Positions 3,129 through 24,553 of a DNA stretch of 64,000 bases are shown one piece after another. The notes below the pieces were generated by a model. It searched no databases. It worked only from the letters and a program-made list of their open reading frames with translations, and was not told the origin of the DNA. Position 1 is the first letter of the stretch, and every line of letters starts with the position of its first letter. Source of the stretch: Fimbriimonadaceae bacterium (GTDB lineage: Bacteria > Armatimonadota > Fimbriimonadia > Fimbriimonadales > Fimbriimonadaceae). The translations under genes were made by a program, and so were the position numbers. The stretch covers positions 62,001 to 126,000 of the forward strand of contig JALHNM010000006.1 in assembly GCA_022843485.1 (NCBI GenBank), written 5' to 3'.

Positions 3129-5564
3129 TTACGGGGTCACGTTCCAGACGAACTGGTCGTGCTCCGAGCACCAGGACGGGCTCGCGGCCGGGCCGGTCTG
3201 GCGGATGCGGTACCGGGCCACGAGGGCGTTGCCGGCCCCGATGTAGCGGCTGACGTTGCCGGTCGCGTTCAGCGACCGGGTCTGGTACGTGGTGTTGATG
3301 CTGTCCGTCCGGAAATCGACCGGGCTGAACCCGGCGATCGACCAGTCGAACAGGTCGAGGGTCTGGCTGAACAGACCGTTGACCGTCATGCGGCTCAGCG
3401 ACACGACCTCGAGGGCCGACGCCGTGCTGGACGGGGCCGTGCCGTTCACCTCGACGGTGACGGGAGCGACCTGCTGGTTCGGGATGATGAAGCGGCAGAC
3501 GCGAAGGGCGTTACCGTCCACGTTCGCCAGGCTCGCGGCGTTCCCGGCGTCGAGCCGGCCGAGCCGGACGGCGACGCTGTCGGGGTTCACCCGAGCCGCG
3601 CCGCCGGTCTGGATCGAGACGGCGCCGTTGGCCGTGGTCGCCTGCCGGTCCGGGTTGGTGATCGTCAGGTTGCGCGGGCCCGCCGCGGCGTTGCCGGCCA
3701 CGGTGACGTTGAGCACGATCTGCGTCGGGTTCGAGTGGCTGAACGTGATGCTGTTGACCGTGATGTCACCGTTGAAGATGGCCTCAAGGCGCTGCGGGTA
3801 GGTCGAGTCGGTGTCGTAGTACTCCTCGCCGTTGGGCTGGTTGCCGGTCACCGTGATGTTCGTAGTCTGGCCAGGCGAGAGGACGTTCGGCGAAACGCTC
3901 GCGACCGGGCACGGCCCGGGGGCAAGGAGCTCGACGGCGCGAGTCACCCAGCGGCCGGTGCTCCCGGCGTACATCTGGAGCGTCCACATCGTCTGGTCGT
4001 CGGTCGGGTCCACGTACGTGCCCGAGTAGTCTCCCCATCGCTGCGGGTTCGTACCGAAGTCGTTGTAGCCGACCGTGGCCGTCCGCTCGACGAGGTTGGA
4101 TCGAAGCGAGCCCAGCGGGTCGCCCGCGAGGCGGCCGCTCGTCGAGACCTGGGTGAAGGTCGTGGCGTTCGTGCTGCTATAGCCGAGCGCCATGTGGCCC
4201 TGGCCCGACATCGCCATGCTGCCCATCCAGAAGAAGAGCGGGCCGGTGAGGGCCGGGTCCACGGCCGTACCCGACTGACGGAGCGTGGGAGCGCTGTCGA
4301 GGTTCTCGAGTTCGTACCACCGCATCGAGTTGCGCGAGTCGCCGAGGCCGCTCTGGGCGCTGCCGTCGGCGAACGTCACGATGTTGTGCGCGGCGGTGAG
4401 GGTGCGCACGCCGGTCTTGCGGTTCCGCCAGATCTGGGCGTGGAAGATGCGGTCGCTCACCGGCGAGAGGCGCCGGGTGCTGCCCTGCGTCGGGACCGTG
4501 AGCGGGTTCGTCGTAGCGGGGACGTTGACGAAGATGTTCCCCGAGATCGACGGGACACCGCCGTTCCAGGAGATCTGCCGAAGGGTCAAGCGGCCGAAGA
4601 ACTGGAGGTCGACGCCGACGATGTAGCCGAACGGGGGGTTCGGGTCGTCGTTGTCGACGCCGCGGGGCGAGTCGACGCCCACACCGCTCGAACCGCCCGT
4701 GTTGAAGCGGAAGCCCGCGATCGAGCCGCCGCCGCCGCCGATGACCTGGGCCTTCGGGATGACGGTCACGTTCGTCCCGAGGAACGCCGAGAGCGCCGTG
4801 TTGAACGTGTTCTCGCCGATGTAGACGCCGTTGGCGTCGACGCCCAGCGACGGGTAGTCGGCGAAGGCGTTCGTGACCTGGACGAAGTAGAACGTGAAGT
4901 TCGACTGGGCCGTGATGGTCGAGGTGTTCGAAACGGCCAGGAGGAGACGGTTCGGGGCGTTGAACGTGAACGCCGCGATGAACCAGCGACCGGTGAGCCG
5001 GTCGTAAGTGGCTCGCGGGTCGCCGCCGCCGCCGCCGACCGAGCCGAAGAACGTCCCGGCGTTGATCGTCAGCTGGTTGGTCCCGTTCTTGTCGCGCCAG
5101 TTATAGCGGTCGTTCGTGACGGTGAGCACCTGCGTCGGACCGATCGAGCCGAACGTGTCCGGCGGGACCGAGCTCTGAAAACCGATCGTGTCGAACGCCC
5201 GACCGACCCGCTGGGGGGCCGCCGGGTTCAGGGTGAGCTTCTTGCCCTCCTGGCCCGGGACGTAGGGGTATTGGCCACCGGGGAGGGCGTCCGGGTTCGC
5301 CACCTTGCGGTGGCTCATCGCGTCGCCTTCGGCACCGAAGTTCCGGATGGTTCGGACCATCTCCTGGAGGAACGTGTAGGCCTTGTCTTGGCGAAGGAGC
5401 TCTTCCACGCTGACAGTGATGCCTCCCTCAACCTGGACGCGCTCGCCGAGGGTGAATCCGGGAGGGGCGGCCTGGGCAGAGGCCGTGAGCGGGCTCGCCA
5501 AAGCGACCCCGAGAGAAAGTAGCGCCAATCCGGCGCGGGACGAAGTGAAGGGTGATCTGCGCAT
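3129..5564 (-). CDS. Secreted beta-propeller surface protein with shared C-terminal domain
   Basis: The start is ATG at 5564 (MRRSPFTSS); an in-frame TTG lies two codons upstream. Signal peptide to about residue 31 (ASAQA). The central part (about 100-560) looks like a propeller with DRLTGRWFIAAF and WGDYSGTYVDPTDDQTMWT; the latter is echoed in the protein at 29548-30876. An Ig-like stretch follows (PNVLSPGQTTNITVTG, about 565-650). The final 150 residues form the domain also seen in the 1-2973 gene, with LRVCRFIIPNQQ, LDLFDWS and a closing DQFVWNVTP. Function unknown; export and surface display are inferred from the leader. It has its own terminator and faces nuoG divergently. Confidence 0.85.
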   Translation of the reverse strand: MRRSPFTSSRAGLALLSLGVALASPLTASAQAAPPGFTLGERVQVEGGITVSVEELLRQDKAYTFLQEMVRTIRNFGAEGDAMSHRKVANPDALPGGQYPYVPGQEGKKLTLNPAAPQRVGRAFDTIGFQSSVPPDTFGSIGPTQVLTVTNDRYNWRDKNGTNQLTINAGTFFGSVGGGGGDPRATYDRLTGRWFIAAFTFNAPNRLLLAVSNTSTITAQSNFTFYFVQVTNAFADYPSLGVDANGVYIGENTFNTALSAFLGTNVTVIPKAQVIGGGGGSIAGFRFNTGGSSGVGVDSPRGVDNDDPNPPFGYIVGVDLQFFGRLTLRQISWNGGVPSISGNIFVNVPATTNPLTVPTQGSTRRLSPVSDRIFHAQIWRNRKTGVRTLTAAHNIVTFADGSAQSGLGDSRNSMRWYELENLDSAPTLRQSGTAVDPALTGPLFFWMGSMAMSGQGHMALGYSSTNATTFTQVSTSGRLAGDPLGSLRSNLVERTATVGYNDFGTNPQRWGDYSGTYVDPTDDQTMWTLQMYAGSTGRWVTRAVELLAPGPCPVASVSPNVLSPGQTTNITVTGNQPNGEEYYDTDSTYPQRLEAIFNGDITVNSITFSHSNPTQIVLNVTVAGNAAAGPRNLTITNPDRQATTANGAVSIQTGGAARVNPDSVAVRLGRLDAGNAASLANVDGNALRVCRFIIPNQQVAPVTVEVNGTAPSSTASALEVVSLSRMTVNGLFSQTLDLFDWSIAGFSPVDFRTDSINTTYQTRSLNATGNVSRYIGAGNALVARYRIRQTGPAASPSWCSEHDQFVWNVTP

Positions 5565-5837
5565 GGTCAAAAGGCACCGTCCTCGGTGGCCGGCTTTACG
5601 TCAAAGTTCGGCCGCACCGACCGTGTACGTGAGACCCGAACGGTCCCGAATTGGGTTCGGAACCCGATTAATCTCACTGATAGGATATCTCCCAGTCCGT
5701 CAAGAGGGGGTTAAGATCAATGGATTCTTATCGGAAACCAGGTAGCGTGGCCCAGTGCGGCGTGGGCCGTCCTGGGTGGTCGCGGAGGCGCGCCGCCCGC
5801 CCGACGTAGACCGATTCGGCTAGACTTGAAGGTGCTC

Positions 5838-15061: not shown

Positions 15062-16546
15062 CTACGGCGAGACGTACTCGAAGTGCGTCCCCTCGAGCGT
15101 CACCGAGTAGCCCCCCGGTAGCGGCGAGGCGGGCCAGACGTGGAGGCGGGCCTGCACCGAGCCGTCGAGGCCGAGGAACCGCGCCACCCGGCCCCGCGCC
15201 ACCGACTCCACCGTGCGGGCCTTCGGGCCGAGCTCGAGGAGGCGGGCCGGGCGCTCGTCCCAGGTGCCGGTCGTGGGGTCGAACAGCTCCACCCGCACCC
15301 AGTACCGGCCCGGCCGGTCCGTGGTCACCCGGGCTTCGGCCCAGAGGTTCGTCGGCACCGGACCCACCGACCCGCCGAACGCGAGCGACACGGAGCCCGA
15401 CGCCCCCGGCGAGGCCACCACCGAAGCCCCCTCCCGAGCGGCCCGCCCAGAGTCGGCCCGCACCCAAGCCATCGGTGACGAGCCTGTATACGGGGTGAGC
15501 AGGATCGCCCGCCACACTCCGTCCGGGCCCGGGGCCGCCCCCACAAGCTCGCCCTTGTTGTTGATCGCTTTGAGGACTTCGATCTTCCAGCCCCGTGCGG
15601 ACTCGTCCAGAAGGTCTCGAAGGAGCACCGTCCCCGTGGGCTCCGACCACAACGCGGTCCCGACGAAGGGACCGTTGACCCCGAGGAGGGCCTGGCCGAC
15701 GTCGTTGACCGCGTTGGAGCCGAACGAGGTCACGCCGGGCGGCATCCCCAAGAAGAAGAGGCCCCGGTCCCGCGTCCACCCGACCGCCTCGTCGTTCCGG
15801 GCACGACGGAGGTGGCCCACCACGAGGCCGTCGTCGTTCACGTCGATGAAGGCGAGAACGTCCCACCCCGCCAGAGGGAGCACGTCTGTGAACCCCTGCC
15901 CCCGGGTCCAGACGAACGAGTACCAGCGAGGGGGAGCCCCGGAAGAGCGCGTGACCTGTCCCACGATGTCCCCACGTCGGTTGACCCCGAAGCCCTGGGA
16001 GGAGTACGGCTCGTAATGCCCATCGAAGAACGTGTACCCTCGGTCGGGCTCGTACAGGATCACCCCTGAGAGGTGGCGATCAAAAGTCTCAACCGTCCGC
16101 AGCCCAGTGATGCGGCCGTCACCCGAAGCCGAGTTCCCGAAGCACCGGTGTCGTTCGAACCGCAAGAGGAACCGGGTTCCCTCTGGCTCAATCCATCGGT
16201 ACAGACGGTCGAAGGCCCCGTTGAACGGGCGGGCGTTCCCGAGCACGGCCCCGTCGTCCGTGACGGCGATCGGTCGAGCGCTATGGATCACGCTCTGACC
16301 GCCAAACGGGATCGAGCGGGATCCCAGATCGGCGTCCCAGACCCAAGGGCGCCCCCCAGTTCCCCGGTGCCCAGCGACTCTGGTCGAATCGTTCAACGCG
16401 GTACCGACCGTCTGGCTCTGGGTCGGCGGCTCTGGCCCGACGACTACGAGGCGGTACCGCACGGCCTCCGCTGGCGCGAGGGCGAGGAGGACGACCGCGA
16501 GGGCCGTGGAACTCCTTCCGAGCGAGGGCCGCCCGCTCACTGTCAT
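15062..16546 (-). CDS. Secreted HAF-type repeat protein (downstream gene of cassette 1)
   Basis: 494 residues from ATG 16546, which overlaps the stop of the upstream gene (ATGA). Signal peptide to about residue 29 (LALAPAEA). HAF-like repeats of the type (A/V)NxxGxxVG recur: ALNDSTRVAG, GVNRRGDIVG, DVNDDGLVVG, AVNDVGQALL and AINNKGELVG. The last 110 residues (PTNLWAEARVTTDRPGRYW, VELFDPTTGTW, VARFLGLDGSVQAR) are the recurring C-terminal domain. The roughly 310 bases at the 3' end are almost identical to those of the paralogue at 22921-24401. Extracellular, role unknown. Confidence 0.8.
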   Translation of the reverse strand: MTVSGRPSLGRSSTALAVVLLALAPAEAVRYRLVVVGPEPPTQSQTVGTALNDSTRVAGHRGTGGRPWVWDADLGSRSIPFGGQSVIHSARPIAVTDDGAVLGNARPFNGAFDRLYRWIEPEGTRFLLRFERHRCFGNSASGDGRITGLRTVETFDRHLSGVILYEPDRGYTFFDGHYEPYSSQGFGVNRRGDIVGQVTRSSGAPPRWYSFVWTRGQGFTDVLPLAGWDVLAFIDVNDDGLVVGHLRRARNDEAVGWTRDRGLFFLGMPPGVTSFGSNAVNDVGQALLGVNGPFVGTALWSEPTGTVLLRDLLDESARGWKIEVLKAINNKGELVGAAPGPDGVWRAILLTPYTGSSPMAWVRADSGRAAREGASVVASPGASGSVSLAFGGSVGPVPTNLWAEARVTTDRPGRYWVRVELFDPTTGTWDERPARLLELGPKARTVESVARGRVARFLGLDGSVQARLHVWPASPLPGGYSVTLEGTHFEYVSP

Positions 16547-18136
16547 TTCTTCACCCAGGACGCCTGGTCGATCGCCACAGCCCACGACGCGTTCGGGTCG
16601 GTGAGGATGAGCGACCTCACTACGACCCGAGCGCGGACGGTCCCCGAGTTCACGTACTGCGAGACGGGCACCCCGTTCGGCGTGCGGCGGTCGTGGGTGC
16701 GGAAGTCGGTGGTGAGGGCAAACTCGGCTGGAGCCCCTGTGCCGTCCACCACCCCATTGTCCCAGGTCGAGGTCTGGAAATTGAAGAGTTCGATGTCGCC
16801 CCGGAACGCCCCTCCGGACGGGGTCCGGACCGTCGCCCGCACCCACAGCTCCGTAGGGACAGCCCCTACAGTCCCGTCGATCTGCACCCGGACGGGGTAT
16901 AGCTGAGTGACCGGGCCGGACTGCCTGGTCACCGTCATCCAATCCGCGTCCGGGTACCGGATCTGGATCTCGTTGCCGATCGGGCTCTCGCCGGTCACGA
17001 CGGTGGCCGAGTCCGGAGCGATTCGGCTGTACTGTTCGCTCACGTCGGTGCTGAACACGAGCCAGCCGTTCGCGCCCGCTCCTGCGAACTGCGGCGGGGT
17101 CTCTTCGAAAAGGTTCGCGTTCGCGATGCCCGAGAGCGTCGCGAACGACAGGTCGGTTCGCGGCTCGACAAGCGCGGCGAAGTCGATTGCGGCCCCACTC
17201 CCCGGCTGGCTCGTGTTCAGCCACAGGTACGGGAACGTTGCGTTACCCGCCACGACGTCACCGCCCGTGTCGAAGTCTGCGACACCCATCTCGACGGTCG
17301 GACCGAAACTGCTGGGGAGGAACACGGGAGTTGACCAGCCGGATCGGTACACGAACACATCAGCCGGGCTCGTCGTGCTAGCTTCCCTGACCCCTGTCAT
17401 CCCGTTCCTGGTGATTCCGGTGACGAACCCGGTCCGGCCCGCCTCCCACCCGGGCAGCACGTTCAGGGTGTACCCAGTGCCTCCCGGCTGCCAGTACGCG
17501 GGGAGCTTGCCCGCCGACCCGTTGACGTAGCCGCCGATCCAGGGATCGAAAGCCGAGTCGCCCGGGGACAACCTCTCAGAGACGCAGAGCGCACGGCCGC
17601 CAAGATCCAGGTCGCCGAGAAGGTTAAAGGAATCAAGTTCTTGAAGCCAGAACGGCTCGTCCCGCCCGTCTTGCCGAATCCACCCCACGATCCGTCCGGG
17701 GTCGCTGATCGCGCGCGCCTCACCGAGCAGGTCCTGATCCGAGCTCAGGAACTGGTAGGAGCCCAGCGGGAACCATTGGGCCGGGGAGAGGACGGTCCGG
17801 CCGTCGCCGTTCGAAAATCCCACCGACACGCCCGCCGCGTTCACGTCGAGAGCCCCGCCGTTGTTCCACCCCGGGGGCATCGGTTCGTTCGCGTTGCTGT
17901 CGAGCTGGTACCTCCCGGCCGCGGAGCGCGGCACGTCGATGGAGTTGAGCAGCCGCAACGCGACGATGGAGGTGTTGCCCATCCGGTACGGAGCAACGCT
18001 GACGTAAGGCTGTGGAACGTTGCTTGCACCCCTAATCTTATAGATGGTTCTCGATTGGGCGAGTACGGGAGCGACGAGGGCGACCACAACGATCGCACAG
18101 AGGATCAGCCTCGGGGGGGGGGGTGATACGGGTCAT
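16543..18136 (-). CDS. Secreted HAF-type protein; signal peptide frame broken at a G11 tract
   Basis: The uninterrupted frame begins at GTG 18087 and covers 514 residues. In-frame codons upstream give a hydrophobic run (LILCAIVVVALVAPVLAQ) that needs a start. ATG 18136 would supply one (MTRITPPP) if the C-tract between had 10 or 13 bases; it has 11. The body has HAF-like units (DVNAAGVSVG, AISDPGRIVG). The C-terminus (VPTELWVRATV, IELFNFQTSTW, DPNASWAVAIDQASWVKK) is the recurring domain. The stop overlaps the start of the next gene as ATGA. The off-by-one tract may be phase variation, a mutation or a sequencing slip. Confidence 0.75.
18113..18123. repeat. Homopolymer tract of 11 G (C on coding strand)
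   Basis: Lies between ATG 18136 and the hydrophobic core of the signal peptide of the minus-strand gene at 16543. Its length sets the reading frame: 10 or 13 would be in frame, and 11 is not. Confidence 0.9.
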
Positions 18137-18358
18137 TGTTGCATTAACTACCTGGACTCCAGGCACTTCTAGTATACGACACGTTTTGTCCTCGCGAGCA
18201 CGATCGACAGCACTTTATCCTCCACTTTGCCTTACCCTCGTCCCCTGACCTTAAGATCCCCCTTCAAGCCTGCCTGGTTTCGAAGGAGCGCCGATCAGGC
18301 GTCGCCCTTATCCTCCCGAATGTCTCAGATCGAGTTAGACCTTGCCCGAATGACAGGG
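18137..18358. other. Gap between dehydrogenase 3' end and HAF gene promoter
   Basis: 222 bases without a gene. On the minus strand, TATACT (18171-18176) could be a -10 box for the HAF pair, but no good -35 was found. CCTGGA-C-TCCAGG (18152-18164) is a small inverted repeat between that box and the start. Nothing else is recognisable. Confidence 0.4.
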
Positions 18359-22920: not shown

Positions 22921-24401
22921 TCAGGGCGAGACGTACTCGAAGTGCGTTCCCTCGAGCGTCACCGAGTAGCCCCCCGGTAGCGGCGAGGCGGGCCAGACGT
23001 GGAGGCGGGCCTGCACCGAGCCGTCGAGGCCGAGGAACCGCGCCACGCGTCCCCGCGCCACCGACTCCACCGTGCGGGCCTTCGGGCCGAGCTCGAGGAG
23101 GCGGGCCGGGCGCTCGTCCCAGGTGCCGGTGGTGGGGTCGAACAGCTCCACCCGCACCCAGTACCGGCCCGGCCGGTCCGTGGTCACCCGGGCTTCGGCC
23201 CAGAGGTTCGTCGGCACCGGGCCCACCGACCCGCCGAAGGAGAGGGACACGGAGCCGGAAGCCCCCGGCGTGGCCCGCACCGACCCCTCGCGGCGCTCGG
23301 CCTGGCCCGAATCGGCCCGGACCCAGGCCATCGGCGACGAGCCGGTGTAGGGAGTGAGCAGGATCGCCCGCCATGCCCCGTCCGGCCCTGGGCCAGCACC
23401 GACGAGTTCGCCCTTGTTGTTGATCGCCTGAAGACCCGCGACCTTCCACCCGCGGGCGGACTCGTCGAGCATGGGATTGAGGGGGAGAGTGCCCGTGGCC
23501 TCCGACCAAAGGGCGGGCTGGCCCGACTGGGGGTTGCCGACCGAGAGCAGGGCCTGCCCGACGTCGTTGACCGCGATCGAACCCGAGGTCGTGAAGCCTG
23601 TCGGGAGCCCGAGGTAGAAGAGGCCCCGCTCCCTCGTCCATCCGACCGCTTCGTCGTTGGAGAAGCGGCGGAGGTGGCCGACAACGAGGCCGTCGTCGTT
23701 GACGTCATGGAACGCGAGAACGTCCCACCCCGCCAGAGGGAGCACGTCGGTGAACCCCCGATCCCTGGTCCAAACGAAGGAGTACGTCCGGGGGAACCCG
23801 GTCTCGCGGGTCGTCAGGCCGACGACGTCACCGCGACGGTTCACCCCGTGCCCGATCGAAGAGATCGGCTCATAGTGCGAGCCGAGAATCGTGTAGCCTC
23901 GATCCGGTTCGAAGAGCATCGCCCGCGAAAGGTGGCGGCCGTTCACGACGACCGTCCGGATCCCCGTGACCCGACCGTCCCCGGACGCCCCGTTCCCGAA
24001 GTACCGGTACCGCTCGAGCCGAAGGAGGAACTGTGCGCCACCTGCTTCAGTCCAGCGAAAAAGTCGATCGACCGCCCCGCTGAAGGGACGGCAGTTGCCC
24101 AGCACCGACCCATCATCGGTGACGACGAGGGGCTGCACACTATGGATGATGCTCTGGCCGCCTAAGGGATGTACCGCGGACCCAGATCCGCGTCCCAGAC
24201 CCAAGCGCGGGTGCTGCCAAGGTTCCCGGCGACCCGGGACGAGTCGTTCAGGCCGAGGGCACTGCTCCCATACCGTGGCGGGGGTTCCGGTCCGATCTCT
24301 TGCAGCCGGTAGCGGACGGCCCCGGCCGGGGCCAGGGCGAGGAGGCCGGTCGCCAACGCGAGCCAAGGGCCGCTCGTCCGGGGCCGTCCGCTAGAGCTCA
24401 C
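22921..24401 (-). pseudogene. HAF-type secreted protein, paralogue of 15062-16546, with -1 frameshift
   Basis: GTG 24401 overlaps the stop of the upstream fragment (GTGA), repeating the arrangement of cassette 1. The leader (LALATGLLALAPAGAVRYRL) and the start of the body read in one frame to about 24165, reaching VWDADLGPRYIP. The homology then continues in another frame at LGGQSIIHS. Cassette 1 has ATCCCGTTTGGC where this copy has ATCCCTTAGGC, one base fewer. From there about 415 codons are intact, with HAF-like units and the full C-terminal domain. It may be a decayed gene, a sequencing error or, less likely, a frameshifting site. Confidence 0.7.
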
Positions 24402-24553
24402 TTCTTCACCCAAGCCGCCTGGTCGATCGCCACGTCCCAAGACGCGTTCGGGTCGCGAAGTGTGGCACGAGGAATCGGGGAGTCCTGCGTGCGAAGTTCG
24501 AGGGTCGTCAATGTCGTCGCTCCCGGCCTACCAAGGACTCGGCCGACGATAGT
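24398..24553 (-). pseudogene. 3' remnant of the upstream cassette gene (paralogue of 16543-18136)
   Basis: The frame ending at 24398 reads ...LRDPNASWDVAIDQAAWVKK, against LTDPNASWAVAIDQASWVKK at the end of the intact gene. The frame is closed upstream by a TAA at 24554-24556, so at most about 51 codons survive. The first part (GRVLGRPGATTLTTLELRT) could be older family sequence. The 5' body is gone, which makes this a truncated relic of a duplicated two-gene cassette. Confidence 0.7.

Follow-up and report, generated by a model that had tools for sequence, protein, structure and literature searches.

Leader Switches in Other Bacteria and the Locus under Study

Switches formed by repeats in leader sequences are known chiefly from host-adapted pathogens. 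In Neisseria, Opa is encoded by about 11 gene copies with CTCTT repeats among their leader-peptide codons and a switching rate of ~1e-3 per cell per generation, as described in PMC3745409. In OipA, dinucleotide repeats are located within the signal-peptide codons and produce on and off frames, according to PMC6327388. The capD autotransporters of Campylobacter carry a poly-G tract in the frame of an exported protein, and the account in PMC7168839 mentions a tract position kept across the genus and gene decay in some lineages.

Here, we focus on a comparable locus from a Fimbriimonadaceae bacterium (phylum Armatimonadota), whose genome amounts to 2.96 Mb in 20 contigs. The window, namely the whole 64,000-nt stretch of DNA that was analysed, corresponds to positions 62001-126000 of contig C6. 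As in Opa, the exported proteins form a paralogous family with the repeat in their leaders, and the repeat number sets the frame; unlike Opa, with its pentamers and its adhesins of a human pathogen (PMC3745409), the locus involves G/C homopolymers, unrelated proteins and another phylum. With OipA it shares the position of the repeat within signal-peptide codons and the on/off frames, but it differs from the dinucleotide repeats and the unrelated outer-membrane protein described in PMC6327388. The resemblance to capD lies in the poly-G within the frame of an exported protein, whereas the autotransporter architecture is different, and the text of PMC7168839 drawn on here does not state that the tract is placed in the signal peptide.

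With regard to the comparison with Opa and OipA, the repeat of gene 1 lies inside the signal-peptide codons of an exported protein, the signal peptide being predicted by a heuristic. No homology of gene 1 to either family was found, as judged by the absence of Pfam or NCBIfam matches at E ≤ 0.1 and of PDB matches at E ≤ 1 in a sequence search with a six-row homologue profile. By analogy, gene 1 appears to work like the Opa and OipA leaders, and it is not a member of either family. A likeness to HAF-repeat extracellular proteins (TIGR02913) concerns gene 2 and a decayed copy of it, and not gene 1, which is not matched by TIGR02913. No report of phase variation in Armatimonadota or Fimbriimonadaceae was found in the literature searched. 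The switch would act on a protein family without known function, in a little-studied and mostly uncultured group, and if such switches formed a set across the family in Armatimonadota, they would illustrate that this solution also arises where host immunity plays no part.

The Tract and Its Reading Frames

The features of the locus are collected in Table 1.

Table 1. Features of the gene 1–gene 2 locus (positions in the window).
Feature	Position	Strand	Basis or remark
C11 homopolymer (G11 on the + strand), putative slipped-strand switch	18113..18123	-	sequence
ATG start of gene 1	18134..18136	-	joins the body frame only when the tract has 10 or 13 nt (mod 3)
Signal-peptide region when in frame, MTRITPPP-RLILCAIVVVALVAPVLA, predicted cleavage before Q	18058..18136	-	crude heuristic, predicted
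Mini-ORF ATG CAA CAA TGA (MQQ), stop overlapping the gene 1 ATG	18133..18144	-	sequence read directly
Gene 1, predicted secreted protein, ~530 aa in the ON state, body an intact open frame	16543..18136	-	ORF, codon score
Gene 2, HAF-repeat-like protein of 494 aa, predicted to be secreted	15062..16546	-	TIGR02913, 21.3 bits, below cutoff 22.65

The sequence-only reading had described an 11-nt G run setting the frame of a signal peptide, and this description proved exact: positions 18113-18123 hold exactly 11 G, the frame being open at 10 and 13 and closed at 9, 11 and 12. On the gene strand, 10 nt separate the ATG at 18136 from the C tract. When its length is set in silico to 10 or 13 C, a frame of 530 or 531 aa extends from this ATG, with the N-terminus MTRITPPP(P)RLILCAIVVVALVAPVLAQS, a predicted Sec-type signal peptide whose cleavage site was placed by eye after VLA. 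Lengths of 9, 11 and 12 lead from the same ATG to peptides of 9, 32 and 10 aa, respectively, and no alternative ATG, GTG or TTG in the 100 nt preceding the tract opens into the body at any of these three lengths.

As assembled, with 11 C, gene 1 is OFF. At this length, the body frame runs into a TGA that overlaps the ATG of gene 1 (ATGA), and the three codons between this TGA and the tract include no start codon. The first ATG, GTG or TTG remaining in the body frame is the GTG at 18087 and, because this GTG sits within the hydrophobic core, a product initiated there would be devoid of a normal signal peptide.

We consider it probable that gene 1 possesses a slipped-strand phase-variable leader, i.e., a simple-sequence contingency locus of the Opa/OipA kind; as in SSR phase-variable loci, a long simple repeat occupies the frame-setting position. 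Slipped-strand mispairing in the C tract would result in C residues being gained or lost. At 10 or 13 C, the ATG-proximal codons would be read into the signal peptide and the body (ON), and at 9, 11 or 12 C into a short peptide (OFF). A surface or extracellular protein would be secreted in a stochastic and heritable manner, and the HAF-repeat gene 2, overlapping by ATGA, might be switched along with gene 1. The tract presumably changes length within populations, and the product may be displayed at the surface rather than simply secreted.

Gene 1 Protein and Gene 2

Despite the OFF state, the body of gene 1 comprises 514 codons without a stop and has a positive codon score. A uniform out-of-frame length accompanied by other inactivating changes, which the sequence-only reading had named as refuting its proposal, is not what the locus presents, the frame below the tract being stop-free throughout. 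AlphaFold2, run on gene 1 with a two-row alignment only, returned a mean pLDDT of 28, too low for the model to be of use.

Gene 1 ends with AAA TGA and gene 2 starts with ATG ACA, forming an ATGA overlap at 16546-16543. Because of this overlap, gene 2 is possibly translationally coupled to gene 1, and the OFF state may also lower gene 2. A scan for promoters and terminators between 14900 and 18400 found none, and Rfam gave no match between 14900 and 25000.

In other respects, a decayed second copy of gene 2 is present at 22921-24401 of the window (reverse strand) and matches TIGR02913 at 23.7 bits (cutoff 22.65). A 1-nt deletion near 24165, away from long homopolymers, brings a TAG in frame. 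The final ~300 nt of this copy are nearly identical to gene 2 and the remainder is more divergent, a pattern of similarity that suggests gene conversion. Upstream of it, a gene 1 relative is represented only by its last 22 codons (24401-24466, 77% identity).

Long G/C Runs in the Window and in the Genome

The G11 tract is the only G/C run longer than 7 in the window, which contains 10 runs of exactly 7 and none of 8-10. Its length within the window was dropped as evidence, since Markov models of the window yield maximum runs of 8-13 (20 simulations per order). Across the genome, exact counts of G/C runs of 8, 9, 10, 11, 12, 13 and 15 nt are 53, 10, 2, 4, 3, 2 and 1, respectively. Runs of at least 11 thus form a second mode, with 10 observed versus 0.47 expected by extrapolation from lengths 8-10. 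These run counts, together with the enrichment in leaders described below, represent the over-representation characteristic of SSR phase-variable loci. Elsewhere in the sampled genes, homopolymeric coding is avoided: GGGx3 was found at 0 of 127 Gly3 sites (7.1 expected by codon use, P 0.0006) and CCCx3 at 0 of 28 Pro3 sites (1.1 expected), the latter figure alone not being significant.

Several other long runs were noticed. A C11 run (L031:3001-3011), which precedes by 20 nt the GTG of a further gene for a predicted secreted protein, might act as a 5'-UTR switch. A C13 run occupies the final codons of a gene whose predicted secreted product has 463 aa (L033:3001-3013), where a change in length would yield different C-terminal tails. 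A CRISPR-like array with 8 copies of a 28-nt repeat at a 60-61-nt spacing (L036:2439-2892), two neighbouring repeat–spacer units of which are identical, lies ~110 nt before a G11 tract. At the end of a contig of genome G001, C31 followed by a run of A (L111:1980-2010) is likely a sequencing or assembly artefact.

Recurrence and State of the Tract in Homologues

A profile built from three homologues (485 positions) was searched against 85 genomes of the family, one per species, and matched at E ≤ 1e-15 in 8 of them; all tract lengths compared are those of the assemblies. Against genome contigs, a three-row alignment retrieved only CP075364.1, identical to a G008 stretch over 4000 bases. Most profile matches span only a C-terminal domain of ~150 residues, common to many proteins in these genomes, whose role might, as a guess, be surface attachment. 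This C-terminal domain of the gene 1 family is also held by the gene at 3129-5570 of the window (domain at 3144-3662, reverse strand).

Ten homologues cover at least 300 of the 485 positions, and in 8 of these 10 the leader harbours a homopolymer of 9-12 G or C, a retention of the tract such as is seen in SSR loci. The runs are C11 on contig C6 (the window) and G11 on contig C1 of the same genome, G12, G9 and G9 in G001, which belongs to the genus of the window, and, in further genera, C9 in G008 and G12 twice in G025; the eight homologues therefore represent three genera. No leader run was found in the long homologues of G083 and G081, both from one further genus. The contig C1 and G008 homologues share 34-35% protein identity with the window protein, and the body of the former comprises 482 codons without a stop. 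A more distant protein encoded on contig C11 of the same genome (22% identity to the window protein) carries a G13 tract.

The tract consists of C in two homologues (window and G008) and of G in the rest; it lies ahead of the hydrophobic core in the window and just ahead of the cleavage site in the other homologues. Because base and position differ, the tract is not one inherited block in all members, and these differences suggest that what is kept may be the run itself. Both G025 leaders have a common sequence, and the same applies to the pair of 9-G leaders in G001, so that the eight tracts correspond to fewer independent events.

As assembled, the nine tract-bearing members include three in the ON state (the contig C11 protein and both 9-G copies of G001), five that are OFF by length, and one in which the ATG present in its sister is missing. 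Of these nine members, two bear further lesions, namely an internal TAG in the G001 275k copy and a probably inactivated start codon in the G025 99k copy (AAG where the sister has ATG), and some members may thus be decaying. These lesions, the majority of copies being OFF, and the adjacent second copy of gene 2, with its 1-nt deletion and a gene 1 relative reduced to its end, would fit a fixed frameshift in a pseudogene, a single tract expansion having left the gene dead and decaying. We regard this explanation as improbable, since the bodies are stop-free both here and on contig C1, and since decay would strike anywhere, which makes the recurrence of the tract in the leaders of divergent homologues unexpected.

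The assembled lengths also bear on programmed transcriptional or ribosomal slippage, by which a fixed fraction of the product would be full-length while the DNA is unchanged. Runs of at least 8 can serve recoding through transcriptional realignment, but the usual slip sites given in PMC3711429 are runs of A or T. Moreover, a programmed site needs conservation, whereas the assembled length is in frame in some homologues and out of frame in others, and we give such slippage very little credence. A leader switched by changes in tract length remains the reading that we prefer.

Placement of Runs in Leaders

Signal peptides were detected with a crude home-made heuristic and not with SignalP. The strict leader rule, which allowed for three frames and two strands, demanded an ATG start, cleavage by residue 32 and an ORF no shorter than 250 aa. 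It was applied to four clade genomes (that of the window, G001, G008 and G025), chosen because homologues or tracts are present in them. Tracts of at least 11 nt were located in leaders in 3 of 10 cases in the genome of the window, 1 of 6 in G001, 0 of 2 in G008 and 2 of 4 in G025, i.e., 6 of 22 in total. By comparison, the rule was satisfied by 100 of 6000 random sites (1.7%; P 1.3e-6 versus the tracts) and by 9 of 318 runs of 6-9 nt (P 1.2e-4). With a cut-off of 10 in place of 11, the respective fractions are 3/12, 1/11, 0/6 and 2/9. It is unlikely that this placement arose by chance or simple decay.

In a background sample of 464 kb, made up of the window and twenty 20-kb stretches, the heuristic assigned signal peptides to 92 of the 368 genes called, and these signal peptides account for 1.5% of bases. 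Runs of at least 6 were inside signal peptides in 2 of 359 cases, the window tract being scored as outside, given that 18087 is the start of the called gene. A looser signal-peptide detector, with a null rate of 221/3000, was replaced by the strict rule. An earlier count of 4/10 leader placements in the genome of the window was cut to 3/10, since the tract L038 has no clear start codon; L109 and L113, which have no positive n-region, likewise fail the strict rule and are weaker candidates.

Twelve further genomes from the family or order were surveyed, nine of which possess tracts of at least 11; 52 tracts were listed, and the strict rule was satisfied by 1 of the 30 examined, so that the leader pattern is limited to one clade. 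The difference in leader placement between the clade and the other genomes is modest (Fisher P 0.018). The broader proposal of the sequence-only reading, a phase-variable leader of a surface protein, is much strengthened by the leader tracts that 8 of the 10 longest homologues possess and by the enriched placement in signal peptides; the switching of lengths and the surface display that it implies, we infer.

The strongest rival to this proposal is a one-base sequencing or assembly error, the true length being 10 and the gene always on. Long G/C homopolymers are error-prone, and all five length-OFF homologues are one base from ON, but the latter is true of every length and hence uninformative. 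A one-base shift would alter the state that is read; the leader run of ~10 nt remains, and the recurrence, the varied bases and positions, and the enrichment are untouched. We consider such an error unlikely as an explanation of the locus.

Possible Diversification of the Family

More speculatively, and with clear reservations, we can propose an antigenic-variation-like system in environmental, mostly uncultured Armatimonadota. In the leaders of a secreted family, poly-G/poly-C switches would have arisen independently and been selected, recombination would also have transferred leaders and 5' parts to different bodies, and the selective agent would be phage or grazers, not host immunity. The recombination is proposed because of two pairs of paralogues. 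In G001, two tract-bearing paralogues in inverted orientation, ~93 kb apart (L190 and L191 on contig C1, at ~664 kb on the forward strand and 757 kb on the reverse strand), form a mosaic: their first 300 aligned codons differ at ~4 nucleotides and the sequences beyond are divergent. Recombination could exchange C-terminal ends between the two. In G025 (contig C15), L123 and L124 have a common leader and G12 tract, followed by different bodies.

In the 9-G copies of G001, two starts overlap, the length of 9 being open from one ATG and that of 8 from the other, and both starts lead to signal-like leaders. This arrangement is reminiscent of the Haemophilus lic genes, which form strong/weak switches with multiple starts.
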